In this document: positions 16,959 through 36,242 of the stretch, piece by piece
Position numbering within the stretch: position 1 is the stretch's first letter
Layout of the letters: every line of letters starts with the position of its first letter
Assembly: GCF_020034665.1 (NCBI RefSeq)
Contig: NZ_JAIQDI010000001.1
Coordinates: forward strand, 2,170,001 to 2,234,000
DNA: 64,000 bases
Source of the DNA: Niabella beijingensis
GTDB taxonomy: Bacteria > Bacteroidota > Bacteroidia > Chitinophagales > Chitinophagaceae
Direction: 5' to 3'
The notes under the pieces: generated by a model
What the model was told of the DNA's origin: nothing
The model's input: the letters and a program-made list of their open reading frames with translations, nothing else
Databases searched by the model: none
Position numbers and translations under genes: made by a program

Positions 16959-18716
16959 CTATTTTATAAATTCAATTTCATAATCCTCCAGCCATTTGGA
17001 GCCTTCAAATCCCCAGGCATCCTTCGTTGGAAGTCTTAACCAGTAAAATACAGTAGCTGCAACGCCGGAATTGGCAAGCTGCATCGACCGCTTGTTGGGA
17101 TCATTTAAAGGCGGAAAGCTGCAAGGCAGTTGCGCAACATTTGCCCAGCTAAAAGCATTCTTCAATATAAAATCTTTATTCACTGCGCCCGGAGCGTGAT
17201 TCAGGAAACGGTCTCCGAAACCATCACTACAAGGCCAGTACCCGGTGAGATTGGCATACTTCGGGTGTTTTTTAATATCAGCCAGGCAAATATTATCCGC
17301 TACTTCTTTCCCGGAAAGCGCTACATTAAAAATACGGACATCGGCCACATTTAAACCGGTATACCATGCAGCATCATCGGCTCTTGCAAACCCCAGTACC
17401 AGCGGGGCTGTGCTTGTGATGGTCCCCCAGCTGGTCATATCCCGCTCATCCTGGAAGATCCCGTCATTATAAAATTTAAACCACTGTTTGCCCGCGCTGT
17501 CCTGCCGGAAAACAATAGAAAGCGTATGCCAGTTAACAGCATCTAAGATGGCCGTTGTGCCGCCCTCGACCTTTGTATTACCTGTACTTGCAGACCTCAC
17601 CACAAAATTGGCGTCATTGGAGCCGGAAGAATAACATACAAATCCTGGATCAGCAGAACCGAGCAAACTTGAACTGCCTTCAAAAGGCCCTTTCTTTGAA
17701 ATAAATGCGGGCCAGTTACCACTCTTTCTTTCTCCTCTTACTTTCAGCTCAATGGTCATTGGACCGGTGCCCGGGTTATACGCATCGGGATCGCTCATCA
17801 CTGCCTTTACAGCTGTATTACCATTACCACTTAAAAAAGCCCCCACATAAGCTCCTTCTTTTGTAAGCTCCAGTGGTTTAAAATTTTCATTATAATAGAT
17901 ACTAAAGGCACCGCTTTCGTCCAGGGAACTTCCGCCATAGCCGTTTCCTGTACCTCCGTGCGTGCTGTTGACAATCACCAGCCACTCTTCTTTCTTATTG
18001 TATTCAGGGCGGGCTTTCAGTGCGGTCATGATCTCATTGATATATCCGTCAATCTTTGTTGCTGCGCTCTTATAGCCTGCATCATCTGCCGAAAAGCCCC
18101 CGGCTTTTCCGGCGATGGCAGGCGAATTAAAGTTCAGCACCATAAATTCCGGGTTGCCGTTCTTTATCCGGCTTAGCGCCGAGTCCTTCACCCCCTGATC
18201 GCCTGCGGCAATTACCTGATCCAGCACTTCCGGTACCAGGCGGTTCACCATCGTATTCCAGGGAGAGATAAAGGAGGTTCGCATATTTCCGTTTGGAGAC
18301 GAAAGGATATAGGAAAAGAAGGACGGATAGTTGGCAGGAGCACCGCCATGAGGATCACCACCCGGAGGCGCTTCATAAATAAACGTACTGTCCTTTACCT
18401 TGTGTTTGATATAAGAGATACCGGTCATCAATGTTTTCCAGGAAGCAGCATCGGTAGTTACATCATCAGATATCCCTTCCCAGGTAAATTTGCTGTGTGC
18501 CAGCAATCCGTTCAGGGCAGGCAGTGCCATCTTCTTGTATTCTGTGGCCACCGCCCCGTCGATGCCGATCAGCAGAACCCTGCGGCTTGCAACACTGGTG
18601 GAGTCAATATCATCCTCGAAATAGGGAGGCGGATCCGCATATTTTTTACACGATAAAAATACCGTTGAAAAAATCGAAATAGTGATCAGCGCGCCGGTTA
18701 TAAATTTCTTTTTCAT
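16959..18716 (-). CDS. LamG-domain lipoprotein with degenerate alkaline-phosphatase/phosphodiesterase fold
   Basis: 585-residue lipoprotein (lipobox ending at Cys23). Residues about 45-290 follow the alkaline-phosphatase/nucleotide-pyrophosphatase fold: RRVLLIGIDGA (first metal Asp53), a WKTLMTG segment, and VLNFNSPA. Key metal-binding pairs are altered: the family SDHG motif reads STHGG (251-255) and the DxxGH motif reads AIAGK (about 200-204). Residues about 305-480 form a LamG/concanavalin-like jelly roll (MTIELKVRGE, WHTLSIVFR, ADVRIFNVALSGKEV). The C-terminus (about 500-585, YWPCSDGFGDRF...) matches a DUF4983-like tail. Last gene of the 11-gene operon, paralogous to the protein two genes upstream. 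A binding role is more likely than catalysis (inference). Confidence 0.78.
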   Translation of the reverse strand: MKKKFITGALITISIFSTVFLSCKKYADPPPYFEDDIDSTSVASRRVLLIGIDGAVATEYKKMALPALNGLLAHSKFTWEGISDDVTTDAASWKTLMTGISYIKHKVKDSTFIYEAPPGGDPHGGAPANYPSFFSYILSSPNGNMRTSFISPWNTMVNRLVPEVLDQVIAAGDQGVKDSALSRIKNGNPEFMVLNFNSPAIAGKAGGFSADDAGYKSAATKIDGYINEIMTALKARPEYNKKEEWLVIVNSTHGGTGNGYGGSSLDESGAFSIYYNENFKPLELTKEGAYVGAFLSGNGNTAVKAVMSDPDAYNPGTGPMTIELKVRGERKSGNWPAFISKKGPFEGSSSLLGSADPGFVCYSSGSNDANFVVRSASTGNTKVEGGTTAILDAVNWHTLSIVFRQDSAGKQWFKFYNDGIFQDERDMTSWGTITSTAPLVLGFARADDAAWYTGLNVADVRIFNVALSGKEVADNICLADIKKHPKYANLTGYWPCSDGFGDRFLNHAPGAVNKDFILKNAFSWANVAQLPCSFPPLNDPNKRSMQLANSGVAATVFYWLRLPTKDAWGFEGSKWLEDYEIEFIK

Positions 18717-18744
18717 TGTATCAATTCAATAATTTATAATTCTT

Positions 18745-20778
18745 TTACTTTAGCCCGTTTAGTTCACTAAGCGCAGAAAATTCATCTCCTCCATAATTAT
18801 CCGCCATTGAAGGAATCGTTATCCGGAAATACCGGGCTGATACATAATTGGGGAAGAACAGGTTTTGCAGCCCCTGGATGTTCTGCAGGGTAAACGGACT
18901 ACTACCCGTTTCGGTCCAGCTGCTACCATCAGAACTCACTTCCACTCTTATATGCTTGACCGGGCGGCTGGTTCCGGATCCGCTCTGCCGCTGTGCTATC
19001 TGAATGCCGATGATCGACTGTACGGATTTCATATCGACGGTGATAACATAGGGCGGCTCTGCTGTACCATCGTACCATTGGGAATGCCAGAAGGTAGTCA
19101 GGTCTCCGTCTAATAATGTAGCCACTTTTCCGTTGGTGCCGCCTTCTCCGACAGCCTCTTCAGAGTTGGCGGTGATCGTCCAGCCGGTCCTTACCAGCGG
19201 TGCATAAAAAAATCCATCCCCGCCGGTACGGCTAATGGGATTATATTCCCATATTTTCTGTCGCATCACGGGGTATTGCGCCATTTTAGCAAGCGAGATA
19301 TTGCTGATGGTGATCCCCCAGGCTTTAAAGAATTCTTTCCAGTCCTGGCGGGTGTACTCGCAAAGGGTTTCATACACAAAATCCCTTTTCTGCTGATCAG
19401 TGGTAGAGATCCGCGCTGCGCGGCGGGCTTTCTTATACAAAGCGGTCATAAAACCCCATCCATCTTCCTGACCCGGGTAACCATAATTTGCGGGCACTTT
19501 ATCGAAGATCTGCAAAAACGGGGTCAGCCTTTTAAAGGGATCACTGATCAACGGATCCGACCCGTCAAAATTCTTGGTGGTGCTGGTGCTGGCAGCGAAG
19601 GCCAGCGCATCGTTGATCTTGGGCAACAGGTCATCCACCGGGAAGGTGTGTTTTGCAGGATAAACGCCCAGACGGCTGGCATTTTTGAAAATAAAAAGGT
19701 TGTTGGTGGTCTCCCCCAGGGAGCTCCAGCTCCAGTATTGCCCCTGCTGATGGTTGTGCCCCAGTTCGTGGAAGGTACCCCAACTGGCGGCATTATTTAT
19801 ATATTCCGGATCGGTCCATTCATCAAACCAGCCATAGCCGTATTGTGCCCTGAAGGGATAACCGGATACACCGCCGGCACCCGGCGGCATGGTAATGTCA
19901 AGCACTGCCCTCCAGGGAAGCAGCGGAGCCTGGTCCACGGCATCTTCTCCTGAAGTAACGGCTTTAAGACCAATCCACTGGTAATAATCGAAATTGATCG
20001 CATCATCCCATTGCTTCATCAGCGCGTCCAGGTTGCTGATATTACGCGTTACGCAAAATTCCCGGGGCACCGTAAAGATGAGGTTATTGCTGCGCAGTTC
20101 CAGCCAGGGAACACAGGAGCTCCGGATCGCGGCCTTCCACTCGGCTTCATTGGTTTGTCCCAATATAAAATCCGGCATTTTAACCACGTTGCTGAACGTG
20201 ATCGGCACCGGGGCATCAAATGATGTATTTGCAATAATATAAACCGGCCCCCCGTAAGGATTGCGCAGGTAATTGCGTCCCGGCGCGAGGCTGTTAGTAG
20301 TAAAGATGACGGGATCGCGCTGGGAGTTCTGCACGGCAGAGGCATCATAGGTCCAGGCACCGATCTGGTACGACAGGGAGCCGACACCGGCCGGTACATC
20401 TATGATCACCAGTTCGCCGGGAGCCGCATATACCCCCGTGCTGAACTGCGGTTCGGGAATCGTACTCATCCGCAGCTGTTCCTTATCTGCCGGGAAGTAC
20501 TTCAGGTTCATGTTCACCGTATAATTCATCAGCCTTGTTTCATCGGTACACACCAGTCCGGGGAATACCCTGGCCTTTGCATAACGGCTGACATCGATCT
20601 TTTTAATACTGGTATCCACGGTTACCGAAGCACCGTCCTTGCCCGAATCCGGGAAGCCGTCCTTGTAACCAAAATCGTAGTTTCGTTTACAACTGAAGAA
20701 AGCAGTCATAATCAAACCAGTCACCAGCAGGTTGTATCTTAATCTCCGGTTCATTTTATTTCTTTTAAATGCGTTCAT
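18745..20778 (-). CDS. M60-family (enhancin/mucinase-type) metallopeptidase with discoidin domain, lipoprotein
   Basis: 677-residue surface lipoprotein (Cys30 from the first Met, or Cys22 if translation starts at Met9). A beta-rich M60 N-domain (about 65-195) precedes the catalytic M60 domain with the zinc motif HELGH at 337-341 and the third ligand Glu356 in SSLGETTNN, so it appears active. The C-terminal about 135 residues form an F5/8 type C (discoidin) carbohydrate-binding module (VATLLDGDLTTFWHSQW...ARYFRITIPS). M60-like enzymes characterised from gut Bacteroides cleave mucin-type O-glycoproteins. Its ATG overlaps the stop of the upstream gene as TAATG, which implies translational coupling. 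Only obvious catalytic protein of the 11-gene operon. Confidence 0.9.
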   Translation of the reverse strand: MNAFKRNKMNRRLRYNLLVTGLIMTAFFSCKRNYDFGYKDGFPDSGKDGASVTVDTSIKKIDVSRYAKARVFPGLVCTDETRLMNYTVNMNLKYFPADKEQLRMSTIPEPQFSTGVYAAPGELVIIDVPAGVGSLSYQIGAWTYDASAVQNSQRDPVIFTTNSLAPGRNYLRNPYGGPVYIIANTSFDAPVPITFSNVVKMPDFILGQTNEAEWKAAIRSSCVPWLELRSNNLIFTVPREFCVTRNISNLDALMKQWDDAINFDYYQWIGLKAVTSGEDAVDQAPLLPWRAVLDITMPPGAGGVSGYPFRAQYGYGWFDEWTDPEYINNAASWGTFHELGHNHQQGQYWSWSSLGETTNNLFIFKNASRLGVYPAKHTFPVDDLLPKINDALAFAASTSTTKNFDGSDPLISDPFKRLTPFLQIFDKVPANYGYPGQEDGWGFMTALYKKARRAARISTTDQQKRDFVYETLCEYTRQDWKEFFKAWGITISNISLAKMAQYPVMRQKIWEYNPISRTGGDGFFYAPLVRTGWTITANSEEAVGEGGTNGKVATLLDGDLTTFWHSQWYDGTAEPPYVITVDMKSVQSIIGIQIAQRQSGSGTSRPVKHIRVEVSSDGSSWTETGSSPFTLQNIQGLQNLFFPNYVSARYFRITIPSMADNYGGDEFSALSELNGLK

Positions 20779-22634
20779 TATAAATTATCAAATGAGCTCA
20801 ACCAGATCCGTCCGTCCAGCTGTGGCGCTGTTACACTGTTAATGCCCACCCATCGCAGTATCTGCAACGGAATATCCTTTGTATTGGGGACCCGTTCAAA
20901 GTAAGCCTCATCAGGAGCAGGACAGATATTATTGCTCGTTTGGGAAAAGGGCTTCCATTGAATACTTCCGCCGTTATTGGCATTTACCAGTGCATTACGG
21001 CCGTTCCCAGTTTCATCAAGTATCGTATTATCAGTTCCGCTGCCGGATGCACCTTCCCAGAAACCAACAAGAGAACTGAAAAAAGGATGACCAACAGGAG
21101 GCCGGCCCGGAAGACAGCTGTATTGATAGATCACATCGGCGGGCAATGTTGCTTTCCAGATCCTGACATCTGCTATACTCATATCCATATAGCTGGTTCC
21201 ACCAAAAATATTATCGTTATATCCGAGCGTAAGCGGCGCCGTGGAGCTGATCCCATCCCCTGCTGATGCAAGTGATAACTGTTGTGTTCCGCTGGCAAGG
21301 CCATCTACATATGCATTTATAGTGATATTGGTGCCATTCTTTGATATGGTAAAGGCCAGCGAATGCCAGATCCCGTCATTGATTGCAGTACTCGTGTTAA
21401 ACTCTGTATTTACCCTCGTACCACTTACAGCACCGTCACTGCGAAACCAAAGCGTTGTATTTGTTCCGTTTCTGAAAATTGACCATCCTGAATTTACACC
21501 ACTGTAATCTCCGTTATAACGGTATCTCGCCTTGGACAAAAATGGCATCCCTCCTGAGTTAGAATAGTTATAAGTACCGTCTGATCTCGGGTTAAGTTTA
21601 ATTCGTGCTTCCATGGTGTAAGGCCCCTGACCTGGATCTAAAACCGACTGGTTGGTTTCTCCTGCTTTATTCTGAACAATTACGTTTGTTCCTCCGCCAC
21701 CGGTGGCAGTATTCGGGTTCCCGTAAAGCCGTACCGCATTCCCTGCATAGGCACCGCTTCCTCTCGTATTCGCCGGTTTTTCCACCAGGCGTGTTGAAAA
21801 ACGCGGATTATAAAAAAGTACATAGGTATTCCGGCGCGCATCGCCGTAGGCTGTAATATCCGATGGAAGCGTGGTGATCAGTCCTCCATCACTGGAAGCT
21901 ACGATGATCAGCCAGTTCTCGTGTGAAAAACCGGGCCTGGAAACAACCGCATCCCGCAGCGCTCCGATATAGGTATCCATCTTCAGTATCGCAGACTGGT
22001 ATTCCGGCACATTGTTATCATATCCGAACTGGTCGCCCGCTTTTTGTATGCCGGTGTATTGTGCTATTACCACATCAGCAGCAGGATTCTTCAGCTCTGC
22101 GAGAGCGGCGGTCTGAATGGCCGCATCGTCAGACAGGGTTTGCGCCACAGCGGCACCCGAAAGTAAATGATCCTTTAAGGCCACGGATGAAACAAAGGCT
22201 GCTGTGCGGATATCCGGTCGCAGCGCTTTCAGCCGGCTTACAAAAGAAGGGTATTGATCCAGGGCACTGCCGGCAAACGAAGTCCCTTTTACCAGGTGTT
22301 TGGTCTGGCTAACCCCGGTGAACATATTGGCCCAGGCATTTTCATTGGTAAAGCTGCTGTCCTTCCGCTCATAATCGCCCAAACCGCTTGTCGTATAAAC
22401 ACCGTTCTCTTCCATACCCCGCAGCACCGGACGTTCTGAGGCCCCGAATGCTTCGCCACGGGCGCCGTCCATGATCACATACAGTACTTTATAACCGGTT
22501 TTAACCGTGTCTTTTCCGGTTACATTATTGCCGAGCGTATCCTTAAACGGTTTGTTGCACGAAAATGTAATCACTGCGACGAGTAACATCGCCATGCCGG
22601 CAAAAAGACCTGAGGTTTTAAAAAATTTATACAT
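20778..22634 (-). CDS. LamG-domain lipoprotein with degenerate alkaline-phosphatase/phosphodiesterase fold (second copy)
   Basis: 618-residue lipoprotein (Cys26). It has the same order as its paralogue downstream: phosphodiesterase-like domain (about 45-280) starting YKVLYVIMDGARG (Asp56) with ENAWANMFTG, then a LamG jelly roll (about 335-500, PYTMEARIKLN, WHSLAFTISKNG, MSIADVRIWKATLP), then a DUF4983-like C-terminus. The metal motifs are again broken: SDHG is replaced by SSDGG (247-251) and DxxGHxxG by QKAGDQFG (197-204). Identity between the copies looks low, so the duplication is old. It is translationally coupled to the M60 peptidase. Function not established; ligand binding at the cell surface is inferred. 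Confidence 0.78.
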   Translation of the reverse strand: MYKFFKTSGLFAGMAMLLVAVITFSCNKPFKDTLGNNVTGKDTVKTGYKVLYVIMDGARGEAFGASERPVLRGMEENGVYTTSGLGDYERKDSSFTNENAWANMFTGVSQTKHLVKGTSFAGSALDQYPSFVSRLKALRPDIRTAAFVSSVALKDHLLSGAAVAQTLSDDAAIQTAALAELKNPAADVVIAQYTGIQKAGDQFGYDNNVPEYQSAILKMDTYIGALRDAVVSRPGFSHENWLIIVASSDGGLITTLPSDITAYGDARRNTYVLFYNPRFSTRLVEKPANTRGSGAYAGNAVRLYGNPNTATGGGGTNVIVQNKAGETNQSVLDPGQGPYTMEARIKLNPRSDGTYNYSNSGGMPFLSKARYRYNGDYSGVNSGWSIFRNGTNTTLWFRSDGAVSGTRVNTEFNTSTAINDGIWHSLAFTISKNGTNITINAYVDGLASGTQQLSLASAGDGISSTAPLTLGYNDNIFGGTSYMDMSIADVRIWKATLPADVIYQYSCLPGRPPVGHPFFSSLVGFWEGASGSGTDNTILDETGNGRNALVNANNGGSIQWKPFSQTSNNICPAPDEAYFERVPNTKDIPLQILRWVGINSVTAPQLDGRIWLSSFDNL

Positions 22635-22661
22635 AATAACTCCTGTAGTTTATGATTCACA

Positions 22662-24308
22662 TTAATTCTGGAACCGTAGTTTCACGATATTCCCCACCTG
22701 CTTTCCATCGAACCGGGTAAAACTGCCCACCATCATTACAAAGCGGATCGTTGGATCGGTGGCGCTCGGATATTCGGTAAATCCGTTTATATAGCCATTG
22801 CAAAAGCCAAGGTTATTATAGCCCACCGCCAGTGTACCATCGGGGTTCAGTACCATAAAGCCGGGCCGTACCACGCCTGCATATTTGTTAAAGGTGCCGG
22901 ATACCAGTATCTTTCCGTCGTCCAGTTGTCCTGCATAATTGGGAATCCCTTCTTCCACGGTACGGAACTTAAAGCTGTTGTCCACGTTTCCATCCTGATC
23001 GATCATTACCACCCCGTTCGCCGGCTGACCATTATAAGTGGTAAAACCTCCGGTCAGCAGGATCTTTCCCGTTTTTTGATTGTAGGTGATGCGATTGATG
23101 CTGCCATTGGCCCCACCAGCGGTAAAAGAAGGATCTCTTCTTCCGGTAGCAGTATCAATGCGTATGATCCGACCGGCTCCCTGGTTCTCAAACGTTGTGA
23201 AACTGCCCGCCAGCAACAGTTTGCCGTTGGCGGTCTGAACGGCATCATAGATCAGGCCATTGGCATTGGTATATCCCTGTACGGGGCGCATGGCCTTGTT
23301 CAGGTTGAACGAAGAATCGATCACTCCATCCTCTTTCATGCGAACCACCTGACTGATCTGCACCCGGTCTATATAAGGTGTTTCCCTGGTGGAGCGCTCA
23401 AAAAGAATGCTTGCATGACTGGTAAAATTACCCACAGCAATGATCCCTGAAGCGGTGTTGAATAATTTCAGGACATTGCCTCCCACGCCTCCGTGAAATA
23501 CAGGCCCGTACTTCTGAGGTTGTTCTCCCTCGCCGGTAATATCAAAAAGTGCCGTGTCCAATGCGCCGTCACTCCTCAGCATGGCCACATTATTGAGCGG
23601 TCCCTGTTCGTTCATCGTGGCAAAGGATCCAGCGATATAAAGCGTTCCCCCTTCACCCTCAAATGCCGTATTTACGGAAGCGCCTCCGCCCAGACCCTGA
23701 ACACCCGTTTTCAGTCTGTTGGCTTCACTCGCAGGTGCTGCACCGTTCTCATCGATCACCGCGATTCCGTTAACCGCTGTTGTGCTGGTTGCTGTAGACT
23801 GGTAATCGGCAAAGGATCCATAGATAAACAATCCGCCGTTGGCACGCCTTAAGATACCGGAGATCTCCCCCCGCATTGGTCCGCCGGTTGCTATGGAAGA
23901 TCCTGTATTAAAAGAAGGATCGATATTCAGTTTACCCCGGATGCTGATCACCGGTCCGAAATAGAACTCACCCCCGATCTCGACGGCACAGGAGCCTGTA
24001 CTGGCGGTAATAGGGATCTTTACGCTTACTTCTTCGGCCGTAACATTCATCACCTCCGCTTCCACCTGGTTGATATAGAACCGGAACTGGCCTTTCTTCC
24101 CCTCAAGCCCGTTCACTTTTACCGTTACAATGGCGCTTTCCGCAACCAGCGCCGGTGTCGGAGAGGCGTCTTCAAATTTCACCAGGGTAGCAGGTGCTTT
24201 CGGATAAAGCGCCTCTTCGCTAACCTTATTTTTATTACAGGAAGAAAAGGCCCCGGAAAAAGCAGCAGCTAAAACGAACCCCCAAACCCATTCTTTTTTA
24301 AATATCAT
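22662..24308 (-). CDS. Lipoprotein with IPT/TIG-like (DUF5008-type) domain and delta-60 repeats
   Basis: 548-residue lipoprotein (Cys24). Residues about 40-135 form an Ig-like domain (SAIVTVKVNGLEGKKGQFRFYINQVEAEV...VKIPITASTGSCAVEI), resembling the IPT/TIG domain labelled DUF5008. Residues about 135-548 hold some six delta-60-type blades of about 55 residues, with repeats such as GKLLLAGSFTTFENQGAGRI, GKILLTGGFTTYNGQPANGV and GKILVSGTFNKYAG, each followed by D-x-SF. This predicts a beta-propeller. It is part of the second SusC-SusD-fasciclin set and is probably a surface glycan- or protein-binding accessory. Confidence 0.75.
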   Translation of the reverse strand: MIFKKEWVWGFVLAAAFSGAFSSCNKNKVSEEALYPKAPATLVKFEDASPTPALVAESAIVTVKVNGLEGKKGQFRFYINQVEAEVMNVTAEEVSVKIPITASTGSCAVEIGGEFYFGPVISIRGKLNIDPSFNTGSSIATGGPMRGEISGILRRANGGLFIYGSFADYQSTATSTTAVNGIAVIDENGAAPASEANRLKTGVQGLGGGASVNTAFEGEGGTLYIAGSFATMNEQGPLNNVAMLRSDGALDTALFDITGEGEQPQKYGPVFHGGVGGNVLKLFNTASGIIAVGNFTSHASILFERSTRETPYIDRVQISQVVRMKEDGVIDSSFNLNKAMRPVQGYTNANGLIYDAVQTANGKLLLAGSFTTFENQGAGRIIRIDTATGRRDPSFTAGGANGSINRITYNQKTGKILLTGGFTTYNGQPANGVVMIDQDGNVDNSFKFRTVEEGIPNYAGQLDDGKILVSGTFNKYAGVVRPGFMVLNPDGTLAVGYNNLGFCNGYINGFTEYPSATDPTIRFVMMVGSFTRFDGKQVGNIVKLRFQN

Positions 24309-25082: not shown

Positions 25083-25096
25083 ATACTTATGCTTTA

Positions 25097-26685: not shown

Positions 26686-29600
26686 TTAAAACTGAACGCT
26701 TAAACCGAGGGAATACGTACGGGCATTGGGATATCCTTTTGATTTATCACGCCCGAAGCTGGTAACCAATTCAGGATCAGGCCCCGAATACCTGGAAAAA
26801 GTATACACGTTTGCAGCAGTAAGATTTAACCGCGCACTGGTCATACGGAACCGGGTCAAAAACTCCGGGGCAAAGTTGTACGACAAAGTGATCTGACTTA
26901 TCTTCCAGTAGGATCCGTCTTCAAGGAAAAGCGACTGATTGGTACGGAAAGGTTGCAGTGTTCCTGCCCGTCTGAAATCATACGGATTGGGATAAACAGC
27001 GCCTACGGTTCCGCTGGTCTTGTCGCCCGGATTGGCCTTCCAGTAATTGTAGTTTTCAATGGGAGGCACCGCACCACCGGTGAAAATATTAGTGGTATAA
27101 CTGCCCAGTTCTGCAGCTGCTGCTTCATTAAGCAGATCCCTTGCCAATGTATAGTTCACCTGTGTTACCAGCATGAAGTTCTTATACTGTACCGTGGAAT
27201 AGATACCGCCCGTGGCTTTGGGAAAAGGATTTCCGAGCGGCAGCAAATCACGGTCATCGATCACATAGTCGCCGTTTACATCTACCCAGCGGGGATCACC
27301 CCCCTGCATATAAAAGCCCTGGTTTCCCAATTGCATGCGTTTGCCGGTTGCCGGGTTCACCGGTACATCCGCTGTGCTGGCGTAAACACCGTTGTTATAT
27401 AATATCAATGGCGTCAGCTCTCTTCCCAGCCGGTATACAACAGGTATGTTGGTTCCACCATCATTAACCGGAAACACAAACTCTCTTAATCCGCCGGGCA
27501 GCCGTGTTACAACCCGTCTATTGAGCGCCCCGTTGGCACTTATTGTCCACTGTACCGGCCTATCACTCTTAAATACACGAAGGGTAAGCGTCAGCTCATG
27601 TCCGAACTTGGCCAGACTGGTTTCGTTGGTCATCTTCTTAACGAAACCGCTGGTGTTGGGCAGGTTGATCTCCCGGCCTTCATTATCTGCCGTTTCATAA
27701 TAGGTATCATAGTTTACCTCCAGCCGGTTGTCTTCAAACAGTCCCAGCTCCACCCCAAAGTTTGTTTTTGTAGTGGTGAGCGGCAGGAAGGCTATGTTCG
27801 GTACCCGGTTCAGATCGATGAATACGGTGGGATTGTTATTATACTGCTGACCGATGATATATTTACCGTACACATCAAAAATATCTCCCGTAGGTGCAAT
27901 GGTGCGTCCCCAGCTCCCCCTGACTGCACCATAGTTCAGCCAGTCGAGGCCCGACAGGAATTTTTCTTTCTGAAAGTTCCAGCGCGCACTCACAGACGGA
28001 TTCTTCAGGTATCCCGCCGAAGGTCCGTTGGCCGATGTGGCATCCAGGCGGTAGTTAAGGTCGATTACATAACGTTTGTCATAGTTGAACGACAGGTATC
28101 CCAGGTTACCCACGATCCGTTTATCGCTCAGGTTGTCCAGGATCCCTCCTTTCGACAACCTCGGATTATATCCGAAGGATCCTTCGATCTGATCATTGGG
28201 AAATCCTACAAGAATATTTCTTGAAGCCCGGAATCCTTCTGAGCTGATCTCATTTACAGCACCTCCGGAAAGCTGGAACATATCCCCGATCATTTTTACA
28301 AAATCGAGCGAAACCCGGTTGTTGATCACATACCGCCGGTCGGAGTAGGTGATGCCTTCAGAGGAATTGCTATTCAGATAAGAAGGCGTATACATGTCTT
28401 CCGTACTGGAATTAAAATTATAGCTGAAGTTGTTGCGCAATGTAAGGCCCTTTATAAATTCCCATTGCAGATTCAGGGCTCCCAGGATGTTTGCTGATTT
28501 ATTATTACTCCGGATCGCATCAAGATTAAATACTTCTCCCGTACCGGAATAGATCGATGCCGGCATCAGTGTGGAGCTCCGGATCGCATTGTAGAGTTTA
28601 TCCTGGTCCAGTGTGCTGGAACTCCCCGCCTGTTTCTGCCCCAATGTTCCCTGAAGAGATACTTCTGCCAGGAAGTTTTCAACCGGCCAGTAGCGGGCAT
28701 TCATGCTTAATGAATACCTTTTGAAACCGGTGTTGCGGATAATACCTGCCTCCTGGTAATAGTTTACGTTGGTTTTATAGTTGAATGTCTTATCACCCCC
28801 TCTTACCTGTATGGTATGATCCTGGTTGAGCGTGGTACGGAAGAAATATTTCTGCCAGTCTGTAGCATTATTGAAAAAAGGGTTCAGGCTATCCGACAGT
28901 GCCGGGTACCGGTTGATCAGCGCTAAGGCTGATGCCGCCGAAGAGTCATAATCCAGTATTGCCTGTATCCGGCTGAGCCGTTCCTCTTTACCACCGAGGA
29001 TCGGGCGCAGTTTCGGAGGAGTCTTTGCAAAGAACTGGGCTGAGTACGATACGATGGGCACTTTGGACAGACCACGTTTTGTGGTGATAACAATTACGCC
29101 ATATGCGGCACGGGAACCATACTGTGCGGTAGCTGCCGCATCCCGGAGCACATCCACCTTTTCGATATCCTGCGGCGGTATCAATGCAATCGGACTGATA
29201 CCGGGGCCGGCACTCTGGAACCCGTATTCATAACCACTGTTTACATCAATAGGCGTACCATCCACTACAAATAAAGGGGAAGTGGGTCTTAAATAGCCGT
29301 CGGCAGTCATGCTCAAACTGGATGACCCGCGCAGGTTGATCGTTCCCATGCCGCCGGGAGAACCGTTGTTGTTCTGCACATCCAGCCCCGCAACCTTACC
29401 CTGCAGCAATTCCACCACGTTGGATACCGGTACATCCTGTAACACCTTTCCGCTGATAGTGGCACTGGAGCCCGTTGCCGCATCCCGGTTTTTTGTACGG
29501 TATCCTTCCACCCTTATCTCCTGAAGCGAACCCGCACCCGATTGTTCCAGTTCGATATCCAGTACATCGCTGGTATCGGCTGCAGTTACCTTGTATTCCC

Positions 29601-29880
29601 GGACATTGTATCCGGCATGACTGAACAGCAAGCTGGAACCCAGGCTTACCGTAATGGTAAAACCGCCATTCTCATCTGTTTGGGCAACAGGCACCGGCGG
29701 CTTACCCGCAGAGATCGTAACACCAGGTTTTCCTGTTCCCAGATCTTTATCGGTAACCCGCCCTTTCAGGGTGACCTTCGTCTGCCCATATGCGGCGTTC
29801 CAAAACCCAGTTATGAACAATATTCCGATTACCGAAAAAAATAACCTCATTTCAATCGATTTTGATTTTAATAATTTCAT
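26686..29880 (-). CDS. SusC/RagA TonB-dependent transporter (second pair of the operon)
   Basis: 1064-residue outer-membrane transporter. The signal peptide ends near AAYGQ (Met11 is a possible start). The CarboxypepD_reg-like domain (about 36-110: VTLKGRVTDKDLGTGKPGVTI) precedes SLQEIRVEGYRTKN as the TonB-box region. The plug includes VVELLQGKVAGLDVQNNNGSPGG split by NLRGSSSL, FVVDGTPID, and EKVDVLRDAAATAQYGSRAAYGVIVITTKRG. The rest is barrel, ending GLSVQF. There is no STN domain, so it is not tied to a FecR, in contrast to the susC at 6957. Member of the 11-gene operon. Confidence 0.94.
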   Translation of the reverse strand: MKLLKSKSIEMRLFFSVIGILFITGFWNAAYGQTKVTLKGRVTDKDLGTGKPGVTISAGKPPVPVAQTDENGGFTITVSLGSSLLFSHAGYNVREYKVTAADTSDVLDIELEQSGAGSLQEIRVEGYRTKNRDAATGSSATISGKVLQDVPVSNVVELLQGKVAGLDVQNNNGSPGGMGTINLRGSSSLSMTADGYLRPTSPLFVVDGTPIDVNSGYEYGFQSAGPGISPIALIPPQDIEKVDVLRDAAATAQYGSRAAYGVIVITTKRGLSKVPIVSYSAQFFAKTPPKLRPILGGKEERLSRIQAILDYDSSAASALALINRYPALSDSLNPFFNNATDWQKYFFRTTLNQDHTIQVRGGDKTFNYKTNVNYYQEAGIIRNTGFKRYSLSMNARYWPVENFLAEVSLQGTLGQKQAGSSSTLDQDKLYNAIRSSTLMPASIYSGTGEVFNLDAIRSNNKSANILGALNLQWEFIKGLTLRNNFSYNFNSSTEDMYTPSYLNSNSSEGITYSDRRYVINNRVSLDFVKMIGDMFQLSGGAVNEISSEGFRASRNILVGFPNDQIEGSFGYNPRLSKGGILDNLSDKRIVGNLGYLSFNYDKRYVIDLNYRLDATSANGPSAGYLKNPSVSARWNFQKEKFLSGLDWLNYGAVRGSWGRTIAPTGDIFDVYGKYIIGQQYNNNPTVFIDLNRVPNIAFLPLTTTKTNFGVELGLFEDNRLEVNYDTYYETADNEGREINLPNTSGFVKKMTNETSLAKFGHELTLTLRVFKSDRPVQWTISANGALNRRVVTRLPGGLREFVFPVNDGGTNIPVVYRLGRELTPLILYNNGVYASTADVPVNPATGKRMQLGNQGFYMQGGDPRWVDVNGDYVIDDRDLLPLGNPFPKATGGIYSTVQYKNFMLVTQVNYTLARDLLNEAAAAELGSYTTNIFTGGAVPPIENYNYWKANPGDKTSGTVGAVYPNPYDFRRAGTLQPFRTNQSLFLEDGSYWKISQITLSYNFAPEFLTRFRMTSARLNLTAANVYTFSRYSGPDPELVTSFGRDKSKGYPNARTYSLGLSVQF

Positions 29881-29892
29881 GACCGCCAGCTG

Positions 29893-30951
29893 TTACAGAT
29901 CATCCGTTGTTTTAGGTACATCTTTTTTGAATGCAAAAACAATCTCCCAGTCACCGGGATCATATATAGCGAAATTGAGTCCGAAGGATGCATTGATCCG
30001 GGCGCCACCAAACCCGATGCGCGACCAGGTAAAAGCAGCCTTTGCAGTTATACCGTCGGATGTAGTATATTTTGTGGGAATGTTCACCAGCGGAATCGGA
30101 TACGCCACGTCATACTGCACATAGGTATCGGTCTTCTTCATGTTGAAGCCATGCACCAGGTGTTCCCAATCGGTAGTATTAAAGATGGCCGGATCCATCG
30201 GCTGGTATAAGGTATCCAAGAAACGGAAGGTAAGCGTGTTCCTGGTAGACGGATTTGCTTTGCGGATATAAACATCCACATCATCAAAACCCAGGTTGCG
30301 GTTACTGTTTTTAGCTCCGGTTACATTTTCGATAAATGAAATCCCGAAATTTTCCCGTACGGGTTGCCCGGTCAGATTATTGAGATTGGTGGGCAATGTG
30401 GGGATCTCCTTCATGGGCATCAGCTTCAGGTTCCTGAAAAAACGCCGGCCACCGGAGTTGGACAATTCCACATCAAACAGGTACCCGGAATCCGGCTGGG
30501 AAAAAACAAAATCTGATTTGCCGGCACCCCAGAAAGTGATATCTCCTGTATGAGGGCTCATTTCCAGAATGGAATGATATTCCTCTTTGCGTTTGGCTTC
30601 TATTTCTGCTATCGATTTCTCCTCGCCCGTATAGGCGGCCTTCCACGCCTTTACCGGGAACGCATCCGTAAGCTCCGGCGCCGGTTCTCCCGTTCTTCTG
30701 CGTACGTTTATGATTTTAAAGTCCGCGGGATAGGTGGTACTTCCCTGATAAAAGTTATCCGTAAAATAGGTCGTTCTGCCCAGTATGGGTTCGTAGGTAT
30801 CCAGTGTAAACCCGGAATCACCTCCGATGGTATTCCTTTCTTTCGGAACCAGTTTTGTACAAGCAGATAGTGCTACCATAAAACACAGTAACATATAAGC
30901 GGTATTCCTGCTGATGATGCAATACATATCTTTTCTGTTATTGTTGCGCAT
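29893..30951 (-). CDS. DUF5007-like lipoprotein
   Basis: 352-residue lipoprotein with Cys31 in MVALSACTKL; Met9 may be the true start. The pattern NTIGGDSGFTLDTYEPILGRTTYFTDNFYQGSTTYP and the beta-rich body are those of a Bacteroidota family I recall as DUF5007, which tends to sit beside SusC/SusD/fasciclin genes. No catalytic motif. It lies 12 bases after a fasciclin gene and 12 bases before the second susC, linking the two halves of the operon. A surface accessory role is inferred. Confidence 0.7.
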   Translation of the reverse strand: MRNNNRKDMYCIISRNTAYMLLCFMVALSACTKLVPKERNTIGGDSGFTLDTYEPILGRTTYFTDNFYQGSTTYPADFKIINVRRRTGEPAPELTDAFPVKAWKAAYTGEEKSIAEIEAKRKEEYHSILEMSPHTGDITFWGAGKSDFVFSQPDSGYLFDVELSNSGGRRFFRNLKLMPMKEIPTLPTNLNNLTGQPVRENFGISFIENVTGAKNSNRNLGFDDVDVYIRKANPSTRNTLTFRFLDTLYQPMDPAIFNTTDWEHLVHGFNMKKTDTYVQYDVAYPIPLVNIPTKYTTSDGITAKAAFTWSRIGFGGARINASFGLNFAIYDPGDWEIVFAFKKDVPKTTDDL

Positions 30952-30963
30952 TCAATAATATTT

Positions 30964-31665
30964 TTAATCTCTGTTTAATGCCTGTATCAGATCTGTTCCG
31001 AATCCGAAATTGTGCCCGGGATCCAGTACATGCAGGATGGCATTGCTGGTTTTTATGTCCACCGTGTTGGTGTATACCCTTACCCAGTTTACGGCAAATA
31101 CGGATTTCCGCATATCACTGAATAAGATGGCAGACGGTCCGCCACCCAGGAAGCCGGATGCATTGGTGGCACGAAGCTGCAGTTGCATTTTATATTCGTA
31201 CTTCATGGAAGGGAATTCCAGTCCGTCTGCGCGGTCGTACAGTTGCTGTGTGGTAATATGACCGGGAATGATATAGCGGCAAAAGAAGCTGTCCAGGACC
31301 GCCTCATCCATGGTACTGAATGAGACCGCAGGAAGTGCCGGAACGGAATCCCTTCTTGCATCATTGATATTCTTCAATGCGATCGTATAAGAGCGGTTGC
31401 TGGTGGCAAAGACGGTATAGCTGCCGCTACGCAGGGAGTCTGCAACACCGGGAAGCCGGTTAATTACCAGCAGCATAGAATCATATACGCCGGGCTGCGA
31501 CTGCAGGTACTCGATGGCATTGCCGTTAAAGGAACCGGCCGTATTGTTGTACTTCACATAGGTCTGATCCGCTTTCGAACAACCGGCGGTCACTATCAAG
31601 GCGGCCAGTATCCAAACACCAAGAGGGCGGGCGCATGTGCTGATAAACTGAGAATAGATGTTCAT
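30964..31665 (-). CDS. Fasciclin-domain lipoprotein (first set)
   Basis: 233-residue lipoprotein, Cys29 in LIVTAGCSK. Fasciclin elements: AIEYLQSQPGVYDSMLLVINRLPGV, YTVFATSNRSYTIAL, CRYIIPGHITTQQL and closing NAILHVLDPGHNFGFG. It sits 36 bases after a susD and 12 bases before the DUF5007-like gene. Same position relative to its SusC/SusD pair as the fasciclin protein in the second set. Confidence 0.82.
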   Translation of the reverse strand: MNIYSQFISTCARPLGVWILAALIVTAGCSKADQTYVKYNNTAGSFNGNAIEYLQSQPGVYDSMLLVINRLPGVADSLRSGSYTVFATSNRSYTIALKNINDARRDSVPALPAVSFSTMDEAVLDSFFCRYIIPGHITTQQLYDRADGLEFPSMKYEYKMQLQLRATNASGFLGGGPSAILFSDMRKSVFAVNWVRVYTNTVDIKTSNAILHVLDPGHNFGFGTDLIQALNRD

Positions 31666-31701
31666 TGTAATATCGTTATTCGGATGATGAATCTTGATTT
31701 G

Positions 31702-33252
31702 TTATTGCTTCCAGTACGGGTTCTGAACAATATTGGGGTTGGCATTCAGCACCTCCTGGGAAACGGGCCAGTAAATTCCCCCGCGATCGATCAGATCATT
31801 GAAGGCAGGATCATTCCGTTTGATCTTGTTATAACGCACCAGGTCGTACCAACGCCAGCCTTCTCCCAGTAATTCTCTTCTTCTTTCTGCAAAAACCTCG
31901 CTGAGTACATCGGTGGCAGGGCCGTATGTTATCACATCGATGTTCCGGTTGGCGCGGAGTGTGTTCACCTTCTGCAATGCTTCCTCGTTCCGGCCCAGCA
32001 CGGCCAGTGCTTCTGCATTCAGCAGCGTGATCTCCTCCAGCCGGGTAAATACGATAGAAGAATTATACACTGCGAACTGACCGGATCCGCTGCCTCCCGC
32101 TACCACTCTTATTTTTTTGAACACAGGAATAGCAGAGGAGTAATTCTCGAAATACGCTTCCGTCGGCAATCCGTTGTCCGGGTTAAATCCGAACCGCGCG
32201 TCATTGCCGTTGGCACGGGGAAACAATATCGCGATGCTGTCCTTGGGTATATAGATATCGGGCAGTTGCTTCGACATCGGGAATTTGGTCGTATTGGCCA
32301 GTGTCAGCTGCTCGATATGCCCGGAAGTACTGGATTCTCCGCGCTCATAGATAAAATTGAACCCGATCATCTGGTTCCAGCTCACTTCAGAGGTATTAAA
32401 AAGAAATAACTCTCCGGTAAGCTGGTCGGTGGTCACCGTTGTCAGCCGGGCCTTGCTGGCATTGTCCAGTACAAACTGGGAGTAAACAGCTACATCCACA
32501 TAGCTGCCCTGCAATGCTGCGATATGGGCCAAGATGGCGTACGCAGAAAGCTTGCCCAGCAAGGTGTTTTTCCAGTCGGCTGAAGAGTTACCATAATAGA
32601 GCGGAGGGAACACCAGGTCCGGATCGGTTATGGAATACTGGTAAGGCAGCCGCTGGGAGGCTTCCAGCAATTCATTCTTTGCAAAGCTTAACACGGTATT
32701 CTTATCCGTACGCGGCAACGCTTTAAAATCACCTTCACCGGTAGATGTGATAAGCGGAACATCCCCCCAGTTCCTTACCAGCATATAGTAGGCAAATGCA
32801 CGGAGCGAGCGGGCCTGGGCCACATCCAGTTTGTAGTACGATTCGGTATAACGGGTATCCTCCAGGCATCCCTTTACACGGTCTATGAATATATTGGCCG
32901 CATTAATGACAGCATAGAATCTGCGCCAGTCGCTTACACTGCTGATCAACGGGAAAGAGGCATTCAGGTTGCCATTGACCACGGCCCTCAGATCGGGCCG
33001 GCTCACAGCCTGAAAATCGCCGTCCCGCAATTCTCCCAGCACCCAATAGCTGTTATTGTCTGCCAGCGCGGCCCGGAACAGGCCGTAGATGCCGATCAGC
33101 CCCGCCCGCGCATCTTCATACCGGGTCCAGTGGTTTTCCTCAGAGGCCTGCCGGGTGGAAGGCACATCTACCTGTTTGTTACAGGCACTCATCAGCACAG
33201 CCACAAAAACAGCTACAATAAAAGGCACCTGTATATAAAAAATCCGTTTCAT
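31702..33252 (-). CDS. SusD/RagB-family lipoprotein (first pair of the operon)
   Basis: 516-residue outer-membrane lipoprotein, Cys24 in VLMSAC. It carries VDVPSTRQASEENHWTRYEDARAGLIGIYGLF near the N-terminus and the family's C-terminal LGEGWRWYDLVRYNKIKRNDP...YWPVSQEVLNANPNIVQNPYW. It follows its SusC by 38 bases. Ligand unknown. Confidence 0.94.
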   Translation of the reverse strand: MKRIFYIQVPFIVAVFVAVLMSACNKQVDVPSTRQASEENHWTRYEDARAGLIGIYGLFRAALADNNSYWVLGELRDGDFQAVSRPDLRAVVNGNLNASFPLISSVSDWRRFYAVINAANIFIDRVKGCLEDTRYTESYYKLDVAQARSLRAFAYYMLVRNWGDVPLITSTGEGDFKALPRTDKNTVLSFAKNELLEASQRLPYQYSITDPDLVFPPLYYGNSSADWKNTLLGKLSAYAILAHIAALQGSYVDVAVYSQFVLDNASKARLTTVTTDQLTGELFLFNTSEVSWNQMIGFNFIYERGESSTSGHIEQLTLANTTKFPMSKQLPDIYIPKDSIAILFPRANGNDARFGFNPDNGLPTEAYFENYSSAIPVFKKIRVVAGGSGSGQFAVYNSSIVFTRLEEITLLNAEALAVLGRNEEALQKVNTLRANRNIDVITYGPATDVLSEVFAERRRELLGEGWRWYDLVRYNKIKRNDPAFNDLIDRGGIYWPVSQEVLNANPNIVQNPYWKQ

Positions 33253-33290
33253 AAATTATCTTTTGATACTGAGATTTTGAACATTCATTA

Positions 33291-36242
33291 TTAGAAATCA
33301 AGCTTCAAACCAACGATCAGCGACCGGGGAAGCGGTAACCCGTACCCATTGTAGATCCCGTTATAATTCGCCAGTTCGGGGTCGTCGCCTTTAAACGGAG
33401 ACAGTGTTAAAAGATTGGTCCCTGTCAGGTAAATAAGACATCTGTCAAATGTTGTCCTGGTTCCTCCCTTGCTCAGGTCATATCCAATAGAAACCGATCG
33501 GAGTTTCAGATAAGAAGCGTTGTCAAGGAACAGGTCCTGGTCCATTCTGTAAGGCACTACACTGCTCCAGGGATTGTATACCGGATAGCCGGTCAGGTCC
33601 TGTTTTTCTTCCCAGAATGTGATCTCCTTAACCGAGTTGATATTGTTGTTGGCTTCTGTATTAATGAAATCCAGTCTTGAAGAAGCATACTGGTTCAGCA
33701 CCTTCCTGCCCAGGGCGAAATAGCATTGGAAATCCAGCGAAAAATTATGATAGGTGAAATTGCTTCCGAAACCGCCGCTGATTTTCGGCAGGTAATTACC
33801 CTGTATCGTTTTATCATCATCATTGATCACATAGTCCCCGTTAATATCCCGCCAGCGCGGATCACCGGCTTTCAGCGCAACACCTTTGTAGGTGACGGGC
33901 TGATTTGTTGAAGGGTTTACCGGCACTTCAGCATCCGTATTATAAATGCCGTCATTGGTGAGCAACCAGAATCCGTCAACCGGTTTTCCGATTTCAAGCT
34001 TGGTGGCACCTATTGTAACGGTGCGTAGTCCATCGGGTAAGGCAGCCAGTTTATTCTTATTGTAATTCAGGTTGCCGGTGAACCGCCAGCTGAACTGATG
34101 CTTCGCTGCAGGGAACAGGTCCGCTGTTACCGAAAGGTCCACGCCTGTGTTGTTTACCGCAAGACCGCTTTTATAGGCGCCGGTATAGCCCCATTCCAAT
34201 GCTACAGGAACCGGCAGCAGCATGTCTTTATCTGATTTTTTATACACATCCAGCCCTACCTGTACACGGTCTTCGATCAGGCCCAGCCGTATACCTGCGT
34301 TCAGCTGATTGGTATACGCCCATGGTATGCCGTACCCTACCCATCCGGAGGTATAGGGTCTTGACAATCCGCCCAGACCGGCATAGGATCCAAAAGTGGG
34401 TTCATTGGTAAATCCCATATCCACACGGTAGGCCGGTCCTGCATTAAAGCGGTCATCGCTCAGCAGTTTTCCCATATGCCCCCAGGAAGCCGTTACCAGG
34501 AAGGAGCTCAGCTGCTGCGCATCTGCCAGCAACGATTTTTTGAGATTCCACTCGGCACCGGCCGAATAGTTGGTGAACCACCGGTTGTCCGGCTGCATAT
34601 TGGAAGAACCTTCACGGCTCACAACCGCATTTAATTTCAGTACCTCGTTATAAGTGTACACAGCATTCCCGAAAAAGGATACCAGTTTGGAGCTCATCTT
34701 TCCGGGGAAATAATTTACAAGTATCCCGCGGGGAATCAGGTAATCCGCTTTATTCGGATCACCGGTTACTACGTTGATCTTGGTAAAATCATTGGGAGTA
34801 TTGTTGGCATAGGCATAATCATATTTATACACATCGGATACAAAATTCTGTCCTCCTTTTAATGTAAGGGTCCCGGAGCTGCCCACATTAAAATCGTATG
34901 CTACGCTATTGGTAATTACCAGGCGTTGGTTGTATCCGAAATAGTTGGATACAAAGTTGTTTCCTTCCAGCAGGGTAGTAGGCCAGAAAACATCACGGAT
35001 GCCTTCATTGTAATCAAATCCGAGTCTTCCGGCATAAGTAAACTTTTCAAAAGGCTTGGCCGCAATAGCAATGTATCCCCTTACCAGGTTGTTGGTATTC
35101 TTATCAAACGCATTATCGAACTGCGAGAGATACGATCCATACAATGAACTGTTGGGCGTAAGCGGATTGGTGAGATCCGGAATATAGCGTTGTTCCGCAA
35201 GGCGGTCCCGGATGTTGCGGTTGCGGTCCCGCTCCTGCCGGGTATACCCGAGCATACTGGAAACCATCAGCCATTTAATGGGCGCCACATTGATAAAGAA
35301 AGAACCATTATAACGCGTAAAAGAGGTTTTATCCGCCGGGTTGGCATTCTTTGTAAGCCCGCCCATAAAACGGAAATTCGCCCGGTCGGATCCGCCGCTG
35401 AGACTGGCATCCACGTTATAAAGCGGTACATTGTCATAATACAGGTTGGTCCAGTCTGCGGGGCCGTAATAATCCCTATTCGTGGAATCACGCAGGTACG
35501 GCGGATAATTTAACCGGTCCTCCACAGTACCATACCGGTTGTAAAATGTCTGGCGGAACTGATTTTCACGTACGGCATTGGTCGCAAAAACATCGGGTTT
35601 TGCCGCATAACCAAAATAGCTGTTGATGTTGATCTTTCTTTCTCCCGACCGTGCATTTTTTGTGATCACCCAGATAGCGCCATTTGCAGCCATTGAACCC
35701 AGGGATGCCAGTGTTACCGGATCTTTGATCACTTCAATGGACTCAATATCATCCGGGTTCAGACTGGCCAGCAGATTGGTGGCCGGCCCTTCACGGTTGA
35801 AATCATATTTCTGTATTTCATAAATGAACGGGTTGTCCTGGATAACCGGTATTCCGTTTACGAATACAACAGGCTGCTGGTCGAACAACTCTCTTTTGCT
35901 CAGCAGCGGAGATGAGATACCGCGGACAAAGATGTTCTGTTCCGTTCCCGGTTCCCCGCTTGATTCCTGTACATAAACACCTGCGGCATTTCCTTTCAGC
36001 ATCTGCTGCACCGATATATAAGGCTGCCGCTCCAGGTATTTCAGCGGAACTTTATTGATGGAATGCCCGTTGAATGAGGGCGCCACCTGCAGCGGCTCCA
36101 GGCCAGTGGTCGGTATTACCGGTAATGTATCCGGAACATCTGTAACCAGGGAGTCCTGTGCTGCAGCATGAAGGTTAAGGACAATAAACACCCCCAAGAA
36201 ACTCCAGCTTCTTAAATACTTCAAACAATTGTTCACAGCCAT
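33291..36242 (-). CDS. SusC/RagA TonB-dependent transporter lacking the N-terminal regulatory domain (first gene of the operon)
   Basis: 983-residue outer-membrane transporter with a signal peptide ending LHAAAQ (about residue 29). Unlike most SusC proteins it has no CarboxypepD_reg-like domain; about 35 residues of proline/threonine-rich linker lead directly to the plug (VQQMLKGNAAGVYVQESSGEPG, VFVNGIPVIQDNPF, DDIESIEVIKDPVTLASLGS, ANGAIWVITKNA). The barrel is of normal length and ends LIVGLKLDF. It opens the 11-gene operon; the 515-base region upstream holds operator-like sites and a probable long leader. Confidence 0.93.
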   Translation of the reverse strand: MAVNNCLKYLRSWSFLGVFIVLNLHAAAQDSLVTDVPDTLPVIPTTGLEPLQVAPSFNGHSINKVPLKYLERQPYISVQQMLKGNAAGVYVQESSGEPGTEQNIFVRGISSPLLSKRELFDQQPVVFVNGIPVIQDNPFIYEIQKYDFNREGPATNLLASLNPDDIESIEVIKDPVTLASLGSMAANGAIWVITKNARSGERKININSYFGYAAKPDVFATNAVRENQFRQTFYNRYGTVEDRLNYPPYLRDSTNRDYYGPADWTNLYYDNVPLYNVDASLSGGSDRANFRFMGGLTKNANPADKTSFTRYNGSFFINVAPIKWLMVSSMLGYTRQERDRNRNIRDRLAEQRYIPDLTNPLTPNSSLYGSYLSQFDNAFDKNTNNLVRGYIAIAAKPFEKFTYAGRLGFDYNEGIRDVFWPTTLLEGNNFVSNYFGYNQRLVITNSVAYDFNVGSSGTLTLKGGQNFVSDVYKYDYAYANNTPNDFTKINVVTGDPNKADYLIPRGILVNYFPGKMSSKLVSFFGNAVYTYNEVLKLNAVVSREGSSNMQPDNRWFTNYSAGAEWNLKKSLLADAQQLSSFLVTASWGHMGKLLSDDRFNAGPAYRVDMGFTNEPTFGSYAGLGGLSRPYTSGWVGYGIPWAYTNQLNAGIRLGLIEDRVQVGLDVYKKSDKDMLLPVPVALEWGYTGAYKSGLAVNNTGVDLSVTADLFPAAKHQFSWRFTGNLNYNKNKLAALPDGLRTVTIGATKLEIGKPVDGFWLLTNDGIYNTDAEVPVNPSTNQPVTYKGVALKAGDPRWRDINGDYVINDDDKTIQGNYLPKISGGFGSNFTYHNFSLDFQCYFALGRKVLNQYASSRLDFINTEANNNINSVKEITFWEEKQDLTGYPVYNPWSSVVPYRMDQDLFLDNASYLKLRSVSIGYDLSKGGTRTTFDRCLIYLTGTNLLTLSPFKGDDPELANYNGIYNGYGLPLPRSLIVGLKLDF

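Follow-up and report, generated by a model that had tools for sequence, protein, structure and literature searches.

A two-channel SusC/SusD surface operon in Niabella beijingensis: a conserved eight-gene core and its candidate substrates

What does a bacterium take up through two SusC/SusD channels that share an operon with no glycosidase? The question is raised by 11 genes on a 64,000-nucleotide stretch of the Niabella beijingensis genome (assembly GCF_020034665.1, contig NZ_JAIQDI010000001.1, positions 2,170,001 to 2,234,000; hereafter the window), a genome of 6.59 Mb in three contigs. An earlier note, made from the letters of the DNA, had described these genes as an operon built around two SusC/SusD sets and an M60 mucinase. 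We found that the conserved unit is an eight-gene core, not the whole 11-gene operon. We lean, by no great measure, towards the view that the operon is a surface system for capturing, cutting and importing a glycosylated protein or its glycopeptides.

The 11 open reading frames (ORFs) lie on the minus strand and run from 36242 down to 16959 (coordinates of the window), where the earlier note had placed them. In gene order the intergenic gaps are 38, 36, 12, 12, 17, -76, 30, 27, -1 and 28 bases, which agrees with its description of a row with small gaps and overlaps, none of the gaps exceeding 38 bases. The 76-base overlap between SusD2 and the second FAS1 gene depends on a GTG start; the ATG at 25082 instead leaves about 14 bases. 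The genes, in order, are as follows.

33291..36242, minus strand: SusC1, a TonB-dependent barrel of 983 amino acids (aa) (NCBIfam TIGR04056, 418 bits; Pfam Plug), without an N-terminal CarboxypepD-like domain
31702..33252, minus strand: SusD1, a 516-aa lipoprotein (Pfam SusD_RagB; best PDB chain 3hdx)
30964..31665, minus strand: FAS1-like lipoprotein 1, 233 aa (Pfam Fasciclin E 0.003, below cut-off; related to FAS1 lipoprotein 2)
29893..30951, minus strand: DUF5007 lipoprotein, 352 aa, a probable surface binding protein (DUF5007 E 1e-80)
26686..29880, minus strand: SusC2, a 1064-aa barrel (TIGR04056, 559 bits; CarboxypepD_reg-like domain just under cut-off)
25097..26668, minus strand: SusD2, a 523-aa lipoprotein (Pfam SusD_RagB; best PDB chain 3iv0)
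24339..25082, minus strand: FAS1 lipoprotein 2, about 247 aa (Pfam Fasciclin E 0.009, below cut-off; predicted FAS1 fold)
22662..24308, minus strand: DUF5008/TIG-like and DUF5122 beta-propeller lipoprotein, 548 aa (PF17164 E 1e-28; PF16400 E 3e-4, below cut-off)
20778..22634, minus strand: predicted LamG pseudo-phosphodiesterase 1 (LG1), 618 aa (Laminin_G_3 over cut-off; Phosphodiest and DUF4983 below)
18745..20778, minus strand: M60 metallopeptidase with a C-terminal F5/8 C domain, 677 aa (PF13402 E 7e-42; PF00754 E 2e-18; M60-like_N also matched)
16959..18716, minus strand: predicted LamG pseudo-phosphodiesterase 2 (LG2), 585 aa (Laminin_G_3; DUF4983 weak)

Pfam and NCBIfam assigned SusC, SusD, DUF5007, a second SusC and SusD, a DUF5122 propeller with a weak DUF5008 match, LamG3, M60 with F5/8 C, and a second LamG3; Pfam found no STN domain in SusC1 or SusC2. 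A simple pattern detected a lipobox-like signal in 9 of the 11 products, the remaining two being the SusC barrels, in line with the proposal that all products are lipoproteins or outer-membrane proteins. A profile search of the 11 proteins matched no glycoside hydrolase (GH), lyase or sulfatase family at E 0.001, and this part of the earlier description also holds. Its fasciclin assignments hold in part. Both proteins fall below the Pfam cut-off, and the second, as modelled with AlphaFold2 (pLDDT 90.5), matches FAS1 domains such as 2vxp (TM-score by target 0.77), which supports a predicted FAS1 fold for the second protein and, by relatedness, for the first. Searches of PDB sequences returned no match for DUF5007 or LG1, Foldseek gave no confident match for DUF5007, and Rfam reported nothing within the window at its gathering threshold. 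Of the features expected of a polysaccharide utilization locus (PUL), the operon has adjacent SusC and SusD genes, in two pairs; none of the 11 genes encodes a carbohydrate-active enzyme, and the operon has no linked regulator of the hybrid two-component system (HTCS), SusR or extracytoplasmic function/anti-sigma type. The operon belongs among the Sus-like systems.

The eight-gene core and its two channels

Within the window's family, 46 of 394 genomes carry DUF5007 (33 of them matching above 110 bits, by hand count); the figures are 5 of 395 for a phylum sample and 75 of 201 for the family to which genome G002 belongs. A hand count gave 51 DUF5007 loci above 110 bits, of which we examined 46; the five left out (G467, G594, G492 and two of G757) share genus labels with examined genomes. 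We also used a named-genus set of 80 loci, the best 80 of 172 relatives. These 80 stretches usually stop within the M60 gene, so counts for M60 and the rest of the tail rest on the 46 loci. The two sets overlap partly and are neither independent nor complete. The exact order SusC1–SusD1–FAS1–DUF5007–SusC2–SusD2–FAS1–propeller was found in 41 of the 46 loci and in 71 of the 80, and the SusC–SusD–FAS1 series thus appears twice with a different accessory lipoprotein each time, as had been noticed in the window. Contig ends explain two of the 14 exceptions (L139 and L152) and split ORFs alone explain four (G688, L129, L135 and L155), and for the remaining eight tblastn located the missing or mislabelled slot in place. 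One of these eight (L203) has split ORFs too, and its propeller shares one ORF with an M60-like part; this 1261-residue ORF (L203:12302-16087) joins the propeller to an M60-like protein without the zinc motif. Eight of 18 weaker DUF5007 matches were examined as well: SusC and SusD labels lay near DUF5007 in all eight and a FAS1 label in six, and these loci look like a half-size module.

Carriers include Niabella, Lacibacter, Flavisolibacter, Arachidicoccus, Pedobacter, Mucilaginibacter, Sphingobacterium, Chitinophaga and Pinibacter, which bears out the expectation of related clusters in other Chitinophagaceae and in sphingobacteria. Among the matches listed, the nearest DUF5007 is that of Niabella aurantiaca DSM 17617 (92% identity; very near records may be excluded). 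The carrier genera are mostly known as soil, water or rhizosphere bacteria, and Rhinopithecimicrobium faecis (L207) is an exception going by its name. The gene-neighbourhood comparison that the earlier note had suggested revealed no conserved neighbourhood in which glycosidases are always present.

Two paralogous operons elsewhere in this genome had been overlooked. The genome holds seven M60 genes, three DUF5007 genes and six relatives of the second FAS1 gene, and every one of these DUF5007 and FAS1 genes lies in one of three operons: that of the window, copy B or copy C. Copy B (contig 1, about 1.275–1.294 Mb) has all 11 genes in the same order, at 31–47% identity; a gap of 388 bases separates it from GH2, GH29, a 97-residue ORF and GH20, which follow on its strand. 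Copy C (contig 2) is without the first LamG gene, its first FAS1 protein bears an F5/8 domain, and the protein in its second LamG slot is short. Its M60 (G000:C2:746079-746906; L007, L013:9013-11034) has SEIGR in place of HExGH and would be a pseudo-peptidase in a nearly full operon. Copy C continues into a BT_3987-like protein and an NAGPA phosphodiester glycosidase, and a GH20 lies 4.5 kb past the operon end. With three copies in one genome and such wide synteny, we dropped the idea of a chance gene cluster. NAGPA phosphodiester glycosidase genes (L013:13369-15132 and relatives) follow C-type operons in 5 of the 46 loci, and another genome of the genus, G760, carries five operon copies (L038, L070, L072, L086 and L092).

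The two channels can be told apart across relatives. A profile of the SusC2 N-domain matched 107 of 107 SusC2 proteins, compared with 1 of 104 proteins labelled SusC1, and in a tree of 54 sampled SusDs, D1 and D2 split with full support; the pair is therefore probably old. Both SusDs also have close relatives in Bacteroides thetaiotaomicron, another point that had been missed. The best PDB chain for SusD1 is 3hdx (E 1.4e-137, 463 bits; next chain 75 bits), which shares 99% identity with a SusD of B. thetaiotaomicron, and that for SusD2 is 3iv0 (E 1.4e-88, 301 bits; next chain 88 bits), 60% of which aligns at 100% identity with a protein of 336 residues named B. thetaiotaomicron. In the tree, 3hdx nests in the D1 clade and 3iv0 in the D2 clade. 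In other Bacteroidales, relatives of 3hdx and 3iv0 are listed with longest contigs of equal size (for example, 30100, 62111 and 43878), which suggests that the two types of gene are linked. We infer that 3hdx is BT0269 and 3iv0 is BT0273. A search of viral contigs gave no relative of the B. thetaiotaomicron SusD.

The variable tail

The genes that follow the core proved variable. M60 is present in 35 of the 46 loci and absent from 11. In six of these 11, the first LamG gene is followed by an F5/8-type match (five loci, one match over cut-off) or by CBM6 (one locus), and two of the six also have a BT_3987-like domain over its cut-off; of the others, one has two LamG genes and in four no gene bears either a LamG or an M60 label. 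We compared 38 distinct proteins with an M60 label and at least 500 residues (34 from the 46 loci and four from the 80-locus set, one of the four a separate gene upstream): 27 retain the HExGH...E zinc motif, and 11, copy C included, have lost it. Proteolysis is thus not essential to the family, and we rejected the M60 protein as the centre of the system. The window M60 itself has the domain of M60 O-glycopeptidases, with the HELGH...E motif intact at residue 337, and an F5/8 domain of the galactose-binding type. Its sequence matches in the PDB are 9pks (E 3e-9), 9pl8 (E 3e-8) and 7yx8 (E 5e-4). BT4244 and five M60s of B. caccae are reported to be O-glycopeptidases (PMC11992087, PMC13355702). 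The window protein shares the M60 domain and HExxH...E motif with such enzymes (BcM60C, BcM60F and BcM60K of B. caccae; AMUC_0627), but is distant from them in sequence.

We take the D-H-G motif to be the metal-binding site of the type I phosphodiesterase/alkaline phosphatase superfamily, and neither LG1 nor LG2 retains it: LG1 reads SSDGG where a full-motif relative reads SDHGG, and LG2 reads STHGG for SDHGG. Among 88 distinct relatives of LG1, which mostly read SNKG, the metal-binding D is lost in 87; among 29 distinct relatives of LG2, the D is kept in none and the H in 20. One relative (L104:15859-17520) keeps SDHGG and scores above the Pfam Phosphodiest cut-off, so the loss in LG1 and LG2 is not an artefact of the motif. 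The motif comparison therefore upholds the degenerate phosphodiesterase sites of the earlier note and indicates that both LamG proteins are pseudo-phosphodiesterases almost family-wide.

Upstream sites and neighbouring genes

Two operator-like sites, without assigned strand, lie upstream of SusC1.

36575..36584: operator-like palindrome CAAACGTTTG, inside GCAAACGTTTGC (36574-36585)
36531..36540: second operator-like site CAAACGATTG, 44 bases closer to SusC1

Palindromes of the CAAWCGWTTG type resemble LacI-family operators. They occur in 41 of 102 upstream regions (mean 0.26 and at most 2 in shuffles, which exchange two-base blocks and ignore relatedness among regions). The window has two such sites, compared with 0.39 expected, and both are upstream of SusC1. 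Copies B and C have no such palindrome before SusC1, so regulation seems, from these sites, to differ among the three copies. The sequence GCAAWCGWTTGC is found at seven places in the genome and its reversed control at none. One place is the window promoter, and two precede the GH88 and GH106 genes of a pectin-type locus, at distances of 134 and 167 bases; the other four comprise two inside genes (L215 and L216), one near GlmS and one between guaB and zwf. The pectin-type locus (L220, L221), which thus has this rare palindrome in common with the window promoter, contains an HTCS, two SusC/SusD-like pairs, GH127, GH97, GH106, GH28, GH88 and an arabinofuranosidase. The promoter-like pattern TTG-N17-21-TANNTTTG was found in 11 of the 102 upstream regions (mean 3.2 and at most 7 in shuffles), and TANNTTTG alone in 20 (shuffled mean 28). 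A sigma-70 promoter scan gave about as many hits as shuffles (26 compared with 28.7 expected), and a terminator scan was not clearly above them (26 compared with 21.1).

The nearest upstream gene (36758-37339, minus strand) encodes a cyclic-nucleotide-binding, Crp/FNR-like protein, 515 bases from SusC1, and genes of similar length occupy this position in some other Niabella loci (L128, L137 and L168). Convergent with the operon (5129-16317, plus strand) are a 177-aa ORF, a FecR anti-sigma gene, a SusC with an STN domain, a SusD-like_2 gene, a phospholipase C-type phosphoesterase and an amidohydrolase; similar-sized genes, judged by length only, follow the operon in G658_b, G739_c and G760_e.

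Candidate substrates and mechanism

We consider capture of a glycosylated protein, as the earlier note had supposed, a plausible function. The propeller, DUF5007, FAS1 and LamG proteins would bind the substrate and keep it at the outer membrane, and the M60 protein would cut its backbone near the glycans. Fragments would then enter through the two SusC/SusD pairs, one possibly taking glycan-rich and the other peptide-rich pieces, and would be deglycosylated inside the cell by enzymes encoded elsewhere or, in other copies, a few kilobases downstream. The tail and neighbouring genes may set the target of each copy: glycoproteins bearing N-acetylhexosamine (HexNAc) or fucose for several relatives, and for the window copy possibly a plant glycoprotein such as an arabinogalactan protein (AGP). 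A bolder idea, offered tentatively, is that the core could be one dedicated glycoprotein-capturing machine of the outer membrane, with two unlike SusC/SusD channels that each have their own FAS1 and binding protein, with LamG phosphodiesterases and some M60s turned lectins, and with the CarboxypepD-less and CarboxypepD-bearing channels importing different parts of one substrate.

Clues to the target disagree: HexNAc and fucose enzymes beside the relatives stand against signs linked to arabinogalactan and pectin. A GH20 hexosaminidase gene follows on the operon strand, no more than 10 kb downstream, at 10 of the 46 loci (three B-type, four C-type, G469, G735 and G711), compared with about 0.2 expected from 105 matches in about 112 Mb (18 genomes, hand-summed, the GH20s of the ten loci included), and the Pfam GH20 model confirmed all ten. 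GH29 fucosidase genes lie beside four loci, three of them B-type tails and one 862 bases upstream of G002_a, and GH20 or GH29 adjoins 11 of the 46. The search started from 15 reference proteins and sought their relatives, so these counts may miss glycosidases of other kinds; Pfam was applied to single downstream genes of some loci. GH20 and GH29 are not known as typical arabinogalactan enzymes. Because they recur beside relatives, we keep the idea that the whole family targets AGP alone as no more than a rival explanation. We rejected mucin as the specific target, as carriers belong mostly to soil and water genera and the window copy has no mucin-type enzyme set beside it.

Several observations weigh against the glycoprotein explanation. 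The ten GH20 loci stem from about four lineages and are therefore not ten independent events, and the window copy has no adjoining glycosidase, so its target is not readable from its neighbours. The absence of M60 from 11 of 46 loci and the loss of its zinc motif in 11 of 38 proteins count against it too. DUF5007, placed here among the binding proteins, matched the fold of the SusE-like glycan-binding protein BT4661 in a tie with unrelated adhesion domains (cadherin and Rib), most of DUF5007 being barely compared. Finally, the B. thetaiotaomicron relatives of the SusDs probably belong to a locus studied for a polysaccharide, arabinogalactan.

This last point leads to the strongest rival, which we judge improbable: that the operon takes up plant arabinogalactan (or AGP) or pectic side chains, as an environmental counterpart of the surface core of the B. 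thetaiotaomicron locus BT0262-90 (PUL5), with M60 cutting the AGP backbone or being incidental. Carriers from soil and rhizosphere genera, the palindrome common to the window and the pectin-type locus, and SusDs far nearer to 3hdx and 3iv0 than to any other solved SusD, with both chains inside the D1 and D2 clades, all speak for it. So does a published gene list, which had not been considered before: BT0269-75 comprises a SusD, a hypothetical protein, DUF5007 and a second SusD, and BT0277-79 includes a carbohydrate-binding protein and an alkaline-phosphatase-family protein (PMC10434189). Among known systems, the segment BT0268-79 is one of the nearest to the window operon. In further reports, BT0262-90 has been given arabinogalactan as its substrate, a mutant in the BT0267 regulator reaching 78.9% of wild-type growth (PMC3243724), the BT0268 susC promoter responds to arabinogalactan (PMC6874557, PMC5061871) and BT0263 acts on gum arabic (PMC8377490). 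However, another report places BT_0270 and BT_0273 in PUL5 and gives its substrate as unknown (PMC13088901), and the identity of 3hdx and 3iv0 with BT0269 and BT0273 is our deduction. Moreover, the 11 genes include no arabinogalactan enzyme, and neither an HTCS nor PL27 nor any further enzyme for arabinogalactan is among the nine neighbours scanned; relatives repeatedly have GH20 and GH29 beside them, and four of the seven GCAAWCGWTTGC places lie away from the pectin-type locus, at L215, L216, GlmS and guaB/zwf.

For the mechanism of glycoprotein capture, the nearest worked-out model is the mucin O-glycoprotein PUL BT4240-50, in which the M60 BT4244 works with one SusC/D pair thought to import mucin glycopeptides (PMC11992087). 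Both systems combine a SusC/D pair with a surface M60 lipoprotein that has an F5/8-type (CBM32) domain. BT4240-50 differs in having one pair rather than two and in having GH2, GH109, a kinase and an inner-membrane transporter; GH2, GH109 and a sugar kinase are absent among the 11 window genes, and the available part of PMC11992087 does not mention FAS1, DUF5007, a propeller or LamG pseudo-enzymes. In the open-licence literature, which leaves out most subscription journals, a single paper mentions SusC, SusD and fasciclin together, and a single one any of DUF5007, DUF5008 and DUF4983.

An importer of oligopeptides resembling RagAB, in which the two pairs would take up peptides from a surface protease and glycans would play no part, seems unlikely. 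RagAB has one pair and is not known to include M60, FAS1 or DUF5007. The 11 genes do encode an endopeptidase and no glycosidase, and SusC/D proteins are reported to import peptides in RagAB and may do so in BT2263-64 (PMC11992087), but the F5/8 domain of M60, the LamG domains and the F5/8- or CBM6-type tails point to glycans, as does GH20 or GH29 beside 11 of the 46 loci. Very unlikely, finally, is adhesion or surface-coat assembly rather than nutrient uptake, with FAS1, Ig-like and LamG proteins for attachment and SusCs moving coat parts: FAS1 and cadherin-like folds do match adhesion proteins and several 'enzymes' are without their motifs, but the loci examined conserve two TonB-dependent SusC/SusD pairs and several have glycosidases nearby.

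Most SusC/SusD systems are interpreted as importers of polysaccharides. Here, a conserved two-channel, eight-gene core without a glycosidase of its own is present in one to several copies per genome. Its close SusD relatives in B. thetaiotaomicron, a tractable gut organism, make the function of this block of unnamed genes testable, and the drift of M60 and phosphodiesterase domains into putative pseudo-enzymes of surface complexes is testable too.

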